Source: Occultella gossypii
GTDB lineage: Bacteria > Actinomycetota > Actinomycetes > Actinomycetales > Beutenbergiaceae
NCBI RefSeq assembly: GCF_019947135.1
Contig: NZ_JAGSHT010000021.1
Location: 124,001-188,000, forward strand
Direction of reading: 5' to 3'
Length of the DNA: 64,000 bases
Positions 24,903 to 61,799 of the stretch are shown piece after piece. The notes beneath the pieces are model-generated. The model saw nothing but the letters and a program-made list of their open reading frames with translations, did no database searches and was not told the origin of the DNA. Within the stretch, counting starts at the first letter, position 1. The number at the start of each line of letters is the position of its first letter. The translations under genes and the position numbers were made by a program.

Positions 24903-25352
24903 TCAGTCCACGCTGTCGAGCCGGGCGACCCCGTCGGTGACCTGCTGGACGGCACGCACGATCGGGACGTCCAGCTCCAGCCAGTCCACCGAGTCGACCT
25001 CGGCCAGTCCGAGCCACCGGAGTTCGTCGTGGTCCGCGAGGGGAGCCGGCTCGCCGTCGATGATCCGCGCCAGCCAGACGCGCATCCGGTGCCCGTGCAG
25101 GATCGGCCAGTCCGTGCCGTCGGGGCCGGGGATGGCGGCACCGATCGCGACCTCCACGCCGAGCTCCTCGCGCAACTCCCGACGCAGGGCCTCCAGGTCG
25201 TCCTCGCCCGGCTCGACCTTCCCGCCGGGGAACTCCCACTGGCCGGCGAGCGACTTCGGTGCGCTTCGCCGGGCCGCGAGGAGGCGGCTGGGGGCATCGA
25301 GGTCGTCGAGGATCGCGGCGGCGACCACGAGGGAGCGAGGGGCTGGCGTCAT
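24903..25352 (-). CDS. NUDIX hydrolase, MutT-like (8-oxo-dGTP diphosphatase candidate)
   Basis: The 149-residue protein contains a complete NUDIX box from GGKVEPGED to REELGV (residues about 43-66), matching G-x5-E-x7-R-E-x2-E-E-x-G. The sequence WEFPGGKVEPGE and the short length are typical of MutT/NTP-pyrophosphohydrolase members that remove oxidised dGTP and prevent mutations. Other nucleotide substrates are possible. The start ATG at 25352 faces the long noncoding region, whose first DnaA-box-like nonamer lies 22 bp upstream, so the promoter overlaps that region. Confidence 0.88.
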   Translation of the reverse strand: MTPAPRSLVVAAAILDDLDAPSRLLAARRSAPKSLAGQWEFPGGKVEPGEDDLEALRRELREELGVEVAIGAAIPGPDGTDWPILHGHRMRVWLARIIDGEPAPLADHDELRWLGLAEVDSVDWLELDVPIVRAVQQVTDGVARLDSVD

Positions 25353-25373
25353 CTGCCCATCGTATCGACTGCG

Positions 25374-25698
25374 CTATCCACAGACCTTGTGCACAGGTGT
25401 GTGTATCGCCGACGTTTACGCAGGTGAAGCTTGTGGAGCCGGCGCGCAACGAGCAAGAAGCGCGTGGGTGACGAGCGGGTGACGAGAGGGTGACGGGCGG
25501 GTCGTTCGGAGGTTCCCACCAGCGTCCACGGCGGTCCGGCCGGACCTCGGTGGCCGGCGGTGCCCGATCGCTCGCAGAGTTGGCCCCGCAAGCCCTCTGC
25601 GACACCGACTTATCCACAATTTTCTTCCACAGCTGTGTGCACAACCGATGAATCCGCAGGTGAACCTGTGGAGCAACCTGTGGGTCAACTGGGGATAA
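25374..25698. repeat. cluster of DnaA-box-like nonamers
   Basis: Nonamers similar to TTATCCACA occur at 25374-25382 (CTATCCACA), 25387-25395 (TTGTGCACA), 25610-25618 (TTATCCACA, exact), 25623-25631 (TCTTCCACA), 25636-25644 on the minus strand (TTGTGCACA), 25667-25675 minus (TGCTCCACA) and 25690-25698 minus (TTATCCCCA). A further exact TTATCCACA is at 25996-26004. The two ends of the cluster also share CGCAGGTGAA followed by TGTGGAG. This density suggests DnaA binding. It may titrate DnaA, as datA does in E. coli, rather than serve as an origin, because dnaA and dnaN are not adjacent. Confidence 0.55.
25466..25498 (+). repeat. 11-bp tandem repeat, three units
   Basis: GGGTGACGAGC, GGGTGACGAGA and GGGTGACGGGC follow one another without spacing. 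The first two units contain the 15-mer GAGCGGGTGACGAGA, which is identical to the 3-prime end region of the tRNA-Gly gene at 52897-52911. Confidence 0.7.
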
Positions 25699-25718
25699 AA
25701 GAAAGGTGGGTGAACCCC

Positions 25719-25747
25719 TTGCGAACGGTCGATGACCTGACTAGAAA
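25719..25747 (+). promoter_or_regulatory. candidate housekeeping promoter for the noncoding RNA
   Basis: TTGCGA (25719-25724) and TAGAAA (25742-25747) are separated by exactly 17 bp, fitting sigma-A-type elements at four of six positions each. The predicted start near 25754 leads into the hairpin-rich stretch and not into an open reading frame with a ribosome binding site. Confidence 0.5.
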
Positions 25748-25753
25748 TAACCC

Positions 25754-26470
25754 CATCGAGTTCACCGACTCGGTCGCAGAGGAGGAGCACAAGCTCACCG
25801 GATGCGGGTTCGAGATCCAAGGCAACACGCCGGGAGTGATCCCAGGCGAGGTGTCGAGGAAGACGGGCCGGCGCTGGTGTGGCGGAGTTCAACCGAAGCG
25901 GTCGGACCGCAGGACGGGTCAACCGTTCGGCGGGGCGGTAGGCGGTACTGGAAAGGCAATGATGTCCTTGCAGGCTCGGACGACGGGGAGACCCGTTATC
26001 CACAGCGCAAGGCTCGATTGCACAACCGGCGGCGCCGACTGTGCGGATCCCGGTCAGCCCGGGCCTTAGCAAGTGAGGAATCGGGGAGACCCGAACCCGA
26101 ACACCGCGGGGCCAGGATGGACCTCGATCCGTACGGAGTGCGGATCCTGGGACGCTGGGGCCGTACGACCCGCGTCGTGGCAGGAGCTTCGGCTCGGCAA
26201 CGACGCAACCGTGTGACCCTAGGACGCTGGGGACCACACACCCGCATCAGCGGACTTGATGCTCGAAGCAGATCCCGACGATGAACCGGCTCGCGGACTT
26301 GGTCCACAAGTCGGGGGTGTGGATGACACCCGCATCGCACGGCCTGCATCGGGTACCTGTACTAGGGAGGCTCACTGCTCAGGCAGGAGTAGCCGGCGGA
26401 CTCATCCCCAGCCGCTCACCGCCCAGGTACAAGCAAGGCCCCTCGGACGCTTACTCCGAGGGGCCTTTGC
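25754..26470 (+). ncRNA. candidate large structured noncoding RNA of unknown class
   Basis: From the predicted start to the terminator (about 715 nt) the plus strand contains a series of perfect short stems: GCGGT/ACCGC (25898-25910), GATCCG/CGGATC (26126-26146), ACGAC/GTCGT (26165-26178), GAGC-TTCG-GCTC (26184-26195), TGCT/AGCA (26260-26270), GACTTG/CAAGTC (26296-26312), GGGTGT/ACACCC (26315-26331) and CTGC-TCAG-GCAG (26375-26386). The last is nested in GGCT/AGCC. Two imperfect direct repeats, GGACGCTGGGG followed by CCGC, lie at about 26149 and 26222. I do not recognise RNase P, tmRNA, SRP or 6S signatures. Function unknown; the 5-prime end is a prediction. Confidence 0.5.
26435..26468 (+). 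terminator. strong intrinsic terminator
   Basis: AAGGCCCCTCGGA (26435-26447) pairs perfectly over 13 bp with 26455-26467 around a 7-base loop, and a T-rich run follows. No protein-coding gene ends upstream on this strand, so it most simply terminates the candidate noncoding RNA. Confidence 0.88.
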
Positions 26471-26586
26471 TTTGCTCTTCCATGATGCCGGGCCCGTCGC
26501 GTGACACGTGCACCGACACACCCATCAGCGGTGAGACGTTCGCCACGAAACCGTGAGGTTCCTGCCGAAAGCCGTAGGGTGGAACC

Positions 26587-27354
26587 GTGATCGAACTGAA
26601 GACCCCCGCCGAGATCGAGGCGATGCGACCGGCCGGCGTATTCGTGGCCGGTGTGCTCACCGCGTTGAAGGATGCGGCCCGCGTCGGTGTGAACCTGTTG
26701 GACCTGGACAAGCTGGCCCACGCGATGATCCGCGACGCCGGCGCCGAGTCCTGCTACATCGACTACCACCCCTCCTTCGGGGCCAGCCCGTTCGGCAAGG
26801 TCCTGTGCACCTCGGTCAACGACGCCGTGCTGCACGGCCTCCCGCACGACTACACGCTCCGCGACGGCGACCTGTTGTCGGTGGACTTCGCCGTCAGCGT
26901 GGACGGCTGGGTCGCCGACTCGGCGCTCAGCGTGGTGGTCGGCACGCCCAAGGACGAGGACCTGCGCCTGATCGAGACCACCGAGCTCGCCCTCGCGGCC
27001 GGAATCAAGGCGGCTACGGTCGGCAACCGGCTCGGCGACATCTCCGCGGCCATCGGTGAGGTCGCCACCAGGAACGGTTACGGCGTGAACACCGACTTCG
27101 GCGGCCACGGCGTCGGCCGCACCATGCACGGTGAGCCGCACGTGCCGAACGCGGGCCGGGCCGGCCGCGGCATGCCGTTGCGCCCGGGCCTGGTGATCGC
27201 CATCGAGCCGTGGTTCATGGCCGGTACCGACGAGATCTACACCGACCCCGACGGTTGGACCCTGCGCTCCAAGGACGGCTCCCGTGGCGCGCACAGCGAG
27301 CACACGGTCGCCATCACGGCGGACGGTCCGGTCGTTCTCACCGCCCGCGCCTGA
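26587..27354 (+). CDS. map: type I methionine aminopeptidase
   Basis: The 255-residue protein has all five metal ligands of MetAP type I: D100 (SVDFAV), D111 (VADSAL), H174 (GGHGVGRTMH), E207 (AIEPWF) and E238 (AHSEHTV). It removes initiator methionine from nascent proteins when the second residue is small. The start is a GTG (MIELKTP), preceded by an AGGGTGG sequence. It is not in the ribosomal protein cluster, where many actinobacteria keep one map gene, so it may be a second isoform. The 116 bp between the upstream terminator and this start contain its promoter. The next gene is 137 bp away and is unrelated. Confidence 0.95.
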   Translation: MIELKTPAEIEAMRPAGVFVAGVLTALKDAARVGVNLLDLDKLAHAMIRDAGAESCYIDYHPSFGASPFGKVLCTSVNDAVLHGLPHDYTLRDGDLLSVDFAVSVDGWVADSALSVVVGTPKDEDLRLIETTELALAAGIKAATVGNRLGDISAAIGEVATRNGYGVNTDFGGHGVGRTMHGEPHVPNAGRAGRGMPLRPGLVIAIEPWFMAGTDEIYTDPDGWTLRSKDGSRGAHSEHTVAITADGPVVLTARA

Positions 27355-52893: not shown

Positions 52894-52897
52894 TGCG

Positions 52898-52968
52898 AGC
52901 GGGTGACGAGAATCGAACTCGCGCTATCAGCTTGGGAAGCTGAAGTTCTACCACTGAACTACACCCGC
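52898..52968 (-). tRNA. tRNA-Gly(CCC)
   Basis: The 71-nt cloverleaf on the minus strand has an acceptor stem GCGGGTG/CACCCGC and U73 discriminator as in bacterial glycine tRNAs. The D arm is GTTC-AGTGGTA-GAAC, the anticodon stem is TCAGC/GCTGA with loop TTCCCAA giving anticodon CCC, and the T arm contains TTCGATT. CCA is not encoded. It reads GGG codons. A hairpin terminator follows immediately. Confidence 0.96.
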
Positions 52969-61522: not shown

Positions 61523-61645
61523 GCGAGCACTCCTGGTGATTGCGGATCGGCTCCGGCCACCCTATCCGGCGCGGACCGGCCCCCGCCCGGCGAGTGGGCA
61601 CCCGGGCACCGGTGCCTCGGCCGCGGTGTACCGTTGGCCCCATAA

Positions 61646-61731
61646 CGACAGGGGAGCGCCACCAGCGCTGAGAGTGCGGCCCGCCGCAGACCCTCGAACC
61701 TGCTCCGGCTAGCACCGGCGAAGGGAGTCGA
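61646..61731 (+). promoter_or_regulatory. TPP riboswitch (THI element)
   Basis: The core motifs of the thiamine pyrophosphate aptamer are present in order: ACAGGGGAGC, GCTGAGAGTG, then CCGCAGACCCTCGAACC, TGCTCCGGCTAGCACCGGCG and the closing AAGGGAG. It precedes the thiB start by about 70 bp. Bound TPP should repress thiB and thiP, most likely at translation because no terminator hairpin with a T-run follows. Confidence 0.95.
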
Positions 61732-61799
61732 GTTCCTCTCCCATGTGGTGTTCACGCACCGCCTGGACCCCTTCTCAATTCCAGTTGAGGAGGACGCAC

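Follow-up and report, generated by a model that had tools for sequence, protein, structure and literature searches.

What is encoded between the NUDIX gene and map in Occultella gossypii? In the 64,000-nt stretch of DNA that was analyzed (hereafter the window), the NUDIX gene is on the minus strand (24903–25352; Pfam NUDIX) and map on the plus strand (26587–27354; Pfam Peptidase_M24), and an earlier note, made from the letters alone, had placed between them a large noncoding structured RNA of no class it could recognize. It is almost beyond doubt that a real structured RNA gene is present there, on the plus strand at 25754–26473 (~720 nt, or 25.75–26.47 kb of the window). The covariation in two domains, the broken reading frame, and the absence of an Rfam match bear out that description. 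The finding is confirmed as real and as larger than first thought: that earlier sequence reading could reveal neither the array of DnaA-box-like sequences that precedes the RNA nor the wider class to which the RNA belongs.

The RNA gene, its signals, and its fold

The 5′ end of the gene is inferred from the −10 box and the 3′ end from a hairpin. The proposed σA-like promoter TTGCGA-N17-TAGAAA is present on the plus strand (25719–25747, with TTGCGA at 25719–25724 and TAGAAA at 25742–25747), and in the 15 homologues of the family a TTGC is followed, with much the same spacing, by TAGA, TACA, or TACT. Also present is the 13-bp hairpin proposed as terminator (26435–26467, plus strand), with arms at 26435–26447 and 26455–26467 and a CGCUUAC loop. 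A simple promoter and terminator scan found, at its thresholds, neither of the two at the RNA locus; despite this, conservation supports both as putative signals. A hairpin with a TTCG loop and two imperfect direct repeats (GGGACGCTGGGG.. and AGGACGCTGGGG..), also listed in the earlier note, can be recognized by eye. The transcript itself is inferred from sequence only, without expression data.

The segment 25747–26475 folds with −371.7 kcal/mol (z = −10.5, with none of 20 shuffles equally low) and, without the end hairpin, with z = −4.6 (8 shuffles). The antisense strand also folds strongly (z = −11.2), so that folding energy cannot fix the strand of the RNA. The strand is fixed by the 60 G-U against 10 A-C cells in the 5′ domain and, likewise, by the GNRA loops, in agreement with the placement on the plus strand.

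The 5′ domain (25747–25937, plus strand; alignment A1) contains 33 base pairs in five helices; in 16 of these pairs, both partners are changed in one or more sequences. In the 15-sequence alignment, 92.7% of the cells are paired (31.8%–46.6% in a slid control) and 55 cells are double changes (16.5 after shuffling); none of 500 shuffles matches the observed pairing or covariation. In the 3′ junction module (26267–26349, plus strand; alignment A2), which contains hairpin A (GGGUGU-GGAUG-ACACCC, 26315–26331), 8 of 17 pairs show double changes, a number reached in 7 of 500 shuffles; there are 31 double-change cells (11.5 shuffled), and the covariation score is reached in none of 500 shuffles. The number of further pair types in this module is not better than in shuffles (215/500). 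One of its helices is off by one column in some rows and, read by hand, shows four or five of five pairs in all 15 sequences. The alignment of relatives, which had been proposed as a check for covarying stems, yields strong covariation in both regions; both structures were drawn from these same sequences, so that the tests favor them. Hairpin B (26396–26415, plus strand) presents in its loop a UCAUCC (26402–26407) that is a possible loop–loop partner of GGAUGA (26321–26326). A 5′ GGATG with a 3′ CATCC or CATTC occurs in 12 of the 15 family members (without a shuffle control), and the evidence for this contact is weaker than that for the helices.

The RNA is 97.2%, 97.0%, and 91.8% identical to its counterparts in three congeneric genomes; for map, the values are 93.8%, 93.5%, and 89.6%, and for the spacer at 25353–25600, they are 75.6%, 74.5%, and 67.2%. 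In the most distant of the three (G003), 91.8% for the RNA and 89.6% for map thus stand against 67.2% and 73.5% for the flanking spacers, and the indels in the RNA are of 1, 2, 2, 1, and 1 nt. A 160-amino-acid ATG frame on the sense strand is mostly open in the two nearer genomes; in G003 it is broken by stops, and a sense-strand coding region was rejected on this ground. Judged from these comparisons, the locus behaves as a noncoding gene, in keeping with the earlier statement that no plausible protein is encoded.

Comparison with known RNA families

Rfam contains models for GOLLD, ROOL, and OLE as well as one for 6S RNA. In Rfam 15, no family matches the RNA region, in line with an unrecognized class, and none matches the 20 loci of the wider class that were scanned, ten of which are also without a match at E 0.05. 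The best sub-threshold match is ar7, with 21 bits for a gathering score of 60. The RNA has no match in the phage and plasmid collections; in viral contigs, one match to a short pattern reaches 12 bits only. GOLLD and ROOL had been offered only as comparisons, and an identification with either is unsupported: there is no Rfam match and none in the phage collection, and, as far as the absence of phage and plasmid matches and the constant locus across the family can tell, the RNA does not share the phage or prophage location of those RNAs. 6S RNA was rejected for want of a match at the gathering score in the Rfam scan, and RNase P RNA because each of the 24 family genomes has one RF00010 match at another place, that of the window genome lying on contig C25. 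In the literature searched (preprints and most subscription papers were outside its scope), no title or abstract start reports this RNA. Elsewhere in the window, there is a TPP riboswitch at 61640–61743 (Rfam RF00059), and a tRNA-Gly (CCC) at 52897–52968 is the only tRNA found.

The RNA in related genomes

In a blastn search, 25 of the 99 relatives gave a match. The BLAST matches L021, L024, and L025 appear coding and were set aside, L023 being outside this judgment. The neighborhoods of map were compared in all 24 genomes of the family, and the RNA is found upstream of map in 15 (Occultella, Ruania, Pseudactinotalea, and others), with lengths of ~445 to 810 nt. A NUDIX relative is on the other flank in 13 of the 15; it was not found in G004, nor in the sequence examined around the RNA of G008. 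Carriers include Occultella aeris, O. glacieicola, Ruania albidiflava, R. rhizosphaerae, Candidatus R. gallistercoris, Pseudactinotalea suaedae, P. terrae, Actinotalea caeni, and one Actinomycetales bacterium; the NCBI taxonomy differs from the family used here, with Occultella placed in Ruaniaceae and Pseudactinotalea assigned to Cellulomonadaceae. In a pattern scan of named genomes that gave 74 stretches, the model built from the 15 sequences (R1) scores nine at 106 bits or above and the rest at 20.8 bits or below.

R1 finds no further copy within the 24 family genomes and only weak hits beyond them: in 3 of 396 genomes of the order (L076–L078, coding-like by eye) and in 3 of 394 genomes of the class (L153–L155). 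The RNA is absent upstream of map in G013, though this genome is in the genus Ruania, a member genus; two box clusters persist there upstream of map (L052). In G022 (L042), unlike in the relatives seen, more than 1 kb with short tandem repeats separates the RNA from map.

DnaA-box-like sequences around the RNA gene

Upstream of the promoter are two clusters of DnaA-box-like sequences. Cluster A (25374–25432) contains CTATCCACA, TTGTGCACA, and CTTGTGGA and is kept in G001–G003 while the DNA between the clusters diverges. Cluster B (25610–25698) is made of 12-nt phased CTGTGGA/CTGTGGG repeats and ends in TGGGGATAA. Inside the RNA gene, a TTATCCACA box (25996–26004, plus strand) is kept in three other aligned genomes of the genus. 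Exact matches to TTRTNCACA number four in the 64-kb window, where 0.41 would be expected, and every one of them falls within 25387–26004. The kind of box cluster that would mark a DnaA-controlled or a DnaA-titrating locus is therefore present.

In 36 members of the family and the order, GTGGA/TCCAC occurs two to five times per 180 nt upstream of the −35 box (mean 3.8); 616 windows taken from these loci give a background of 0.72. The 19 members from the order were chosen partly by their boxes; the 15 family members, which alone were selected regardless of boxes, have a mean of 3.6. In G001, a single contig, TGTGGA-led 12-nt phased arrays are found at 5 of 14 listed pattern places: just before dnaA, at oriC between dnaA and dnaN, at the RNA locus, and at two more. 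Across the whole genome of G001, the phased TGTGG-N7-TGTGG occurs less often than its reversed control (14 vs. 51), and TTRTNCACA exceeds its own only modestly (53 vs. 36). In the same genome, a tight DnaA-box-like cluster lies in front of dnaB (L159, ~1165–1290; 5.579 Mb). The RNA locus of G022 has only one exact TTRTNCACA box. The array suggests, but does not show, that DnaA controls the RNA: there are no DnaA binding data, and the boxes may be read by another protein.

Members outside the family

Sixty-nine RNAs were kept. Of these, 15 belong to the family, 19 come from elsewhere in the order, and 35 were obtained by searching the class. They span at least 14 families (f1, f3, f9, f10, f15, and f17 in the order; f27, f32, f34, f38, f43, f45, f49, and f54 outside it) and are 183 to 887 nt long. 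Their common marks are a DnaA-box-like array upstream, a TTGC/T-N17-18-TAGAA-like promoter, a rapidly changing body of GNRA-capped hairpins, and a 3′ hairpin. The stem of the end hairpin varies, with ends ranging from CCCCTCGGA to CCCCGGGAA and CCGTTGCGA (CTCGGA being the commonest, with 39), and its 7-nt loop reads CNCNUAC: in 68 seven-nucleotide loops, C3 occurs 68 times, U5 67, A6 63, C1 62, and C7 59, with positions 2 and 4 free. GNRA hairpins with at least four Watson–Crick pairs number 158 (45, 23, and 90 in the family, order, and class sets), against ~10 in shuffles (3.0, 3.1, and 4.3) and five on the antisense strand (2, 1, and 2); UUCG loops, like the GNRA loops, are far above shuffles. 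Twenty members folded without the end hairpin give z values from −0.6 to −5.8 (8 or 20 shuffles), and some single members are not remarkable by folding energy alone.

The way in which these members were assembled bears on the counts. With the loop left free, the end-hairpin pattern is found in 46 of 396 genomes of the order (7 with the reversed control); seven of these genomes (G195, G070, G163, G216, G119, G233, and G030), with an end hairpin but no box array with a promoter, were left out. The box-plus-promoter pattern occurs in 117 of 374 class genomes among the matches listed, many by chance, since the reversed control gives at least as many. The class set started from 63 loci, 30 from the pattern search and 33 hand-picked stretches with a right-looking promoter, of which 33 have the hairpin by a loop-blind rule (two duplicates removed), four were added, and 26 dropped. 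The four additions (L257, L259, L261, and L268) were made for their CUCAUAC loop, which slightly biases the loop count; L218 was kept with another loop and L242 with an 8-nt loop, and two of the 35 (L218 and L219) belong to the order. As 14 of the 35 come from a single family (f38), the counts are not independent. Five further loci (in G009, G015, G248, G172, and G097) are member-like and stay outside the 69 because they failed the promoter filter.

We regard it as probable, with some confidence, that the 69 RNAs form one class. Their bodies do not align across families; motif searches and some picking by hand brought in the members from beyond the family, so that homology of the bodies is not shown. 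The shared frame makes a common origin of the bodies likely without proving it. None of the 54 members that are not in the family set has a relative of map or NUDIX within the 1.4–3.1 kb examined; among their neighbors are a Macro-domain gene and an ABC ATPase in G080 and a GNAT acetyltransferase in G539.

A few members have particular architectures. In G080, the end hairpin is present twice, with the additional copy ~530–700 bp upstream of the first (L162, ~1683–1712 and 2384–2412), and the same double hairpin is found in G382, G311, G391, G293, and G171; in this one genus of f9, two nearly identical hairpins frame the boxes, the promoter, and the RNA. Three f45 genomes, G725, G705, and G597, have two promoter-and-box matches each (L268/L269, L272/L273, and L265/L266) and possibly two RNAs each; among these six loci, the CUCAUAC end hairpin is present only in L268. 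In L230 and L231 (f27), the body is a row of many near-identical GAGC(G/A)ATC-type hairpins.

Discussion

The RNA has its own promoter and its own end, and neither map nor NUDIX accompanies the 54 outside members, which points to an RNA acting in trans; a binding partner is suggested by the many hairpins of the body and by the conservation of the end loop. The reading that we prefer, at a probability of only about 0.4 and in the absence of expression or binding data, is that of a trans-acting RNA under DnaA-type control that titrates a protein machine. DnaA, or a protein reading the same boxes, would tie the synthesis of the RNA to replication or growth; the GNRA hairpins would fold the body into a compact scaffold via tertiary contacts; the 3′ hairpin would be both terminator and binding site; and the RNA would bind and titrate a conserved protein machine in trans. 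RNA polymerase heads the list of candidates, since each of the bacteria so far examined by RIP-seq has shown one abundant type of polymerase-binding RNA (6S, Ms1, or CoRP); nothing in the sequence points to polymerase in particular. A bolder form, to which we grant only a small chance, would make the RNA a replication-coupled counterpart of 6S RNA, a DnaA-controlled RNA present throughout the class that links chromosome replication with transcription, or with a different protein machine, by means of a large, fast-evolving scaffold of GNRA hairpins ended by a conserved 7-nt recognition loop.

The size of the RNA and its GNRA and UUCG loops, so far above shuffles, would also suit an RNA-only scaffold or cage with a defined, perhaps oligomeric fold like OLE, ROOL, and GOLLD, working by its architecture and not by protein titration (there are no oligomer data). 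Complements of hairpin loops do occur downstream in 14 of 19 members (shuffled mean 7.1, maximum 11) and in 19 of 35 (mean 4.7, maximum 9), but the hits are not all the same element, and the family set stays at shuffle level (5 of 15 vs. 5.6, with a motif that excluded GGAUGA); with members down to ~190 nt and no Rfam match, such a scaffold remains possible and no more. The rows of near-identical GNRA-capped hairpins in some members, such as L230 and L231, evoke a decoy RNA, like CsrB or an ANTAR-type sponge, for a protein that binds RNA at repeated hairpins; the hairpins being few and different in Occultella and in the ~190-nt members, this is unlikely as a general account (ANTAR-type loops were outside the comparison). 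In a datA-like locus, the DNA boxes would be the functional element and the RNA secondary, with, for example, nearby transcription resetting DnaA occupancy. The oriC-like arrays, the gathering here of all the exact sites of the window, and the persistence of box clusters without RNA in G013 speak for DnaA titration, which we nevertheless hold to be quite unlikely: the structure of the RNA is itself under selection, the RNA is more conserved than map, and, outside the family, the RNA sits at other loci, so that no fixed distance to oriC is shown.

A true homologue of Ms1 or CoRP would have the right size range, a strong-looking promoter, and usually one gene per genome. Ms1, of ~230–300 nt, is intergenic, lies beside a HAD-IB hydrolase, and is divergent in sequence, to the point that its intergenic regions may be dissimilar; by synteny and similarity it is predicted in Occultella and Ruania (PMC9130861, on the part of the text available). 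Here the neighbors are NUDIX and the M24 peptidase map, without a HAD-IB hydrolase, and the length is ~720 nt (183 to 887 nt in the wider set). The end hairpin CCCTCG..CGAGGG is absent from all seven HAD loci checked (L206–L212, in G000, G001, and G009; L213 and L214 were outside the check), which hold at most two boxes, and the three in G000 are on contigs other than that of the window. Thus, the RNA is most likely a different gene from Ms1. CoRP of Corynebacterium, a 516-nt RNA that binds RNA polymerase, lies between tRNA genes and, from the accessible portion of the report, has close homologues only in its genus (PMC11077062); the RNA here is not beside tRNA genes. Homology with either is accordingly very unlikely. 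The position directly upstream of map in Occultella leaves the thought of a map leader or riboswitch, which can hardly be maintained with the end hairpin preceding map, more than 1 kb between the two in G022, and, in the sequence examined, no map next to any of the 54 non-family members; a coding region, with its frame breaks, is no more credible.

These considerations leave the trans-acting RNA under DnaA-type control as the preferred reading. Large structured bacterial RNAs are few, and the present one, whose counterparts extend to 14 or more actinomycete families, has no match in Rfam 15 where scanned. The association of an oriC-type box array with a highly structured RNA makes a concrete test possible, that of DnaA setting the RNA level and of the binding partner. 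The RNA also bears on the proposal that each bacterial species has one type of abundant polymerase-associated RNA, some of them still unknown (PMC11077062, as worded in the section available). If there is one per species, a second polymerase RNA would be odd where Ms1 is predicted, as in Occultella and Ruania.

Among known RNAs, GOLLD, ROOL, and OLE are likewise large and ornate, the function of the first two being unknown according to the excerpt at hand (PMC12286853); the RNA described here differs in having no Rfam match and a conserved chromosomal locus in the family. 6S RNA is an analogue in the way it works, since the RNA described here would, like it, bind RNA polymerase; 6S RNA is different in being 180–200 nt long and a single bulged hairpin (PMC9130861, partial text). 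Ms1 shares with the present RNA its actinobacterial origin, its intergenic position, and its divergent sequence (same source and extent). CoRP is also actinobacterial, intergenic, and structured, with ~500 nt, although it lies between tRNA genes and the only tRNA of the window is at 52897. While homology with it is not established, CoRP is, from what the available part of its description gives, closest to the present RNA in size and offers the best precedent for the function proposed (PMC11077062).
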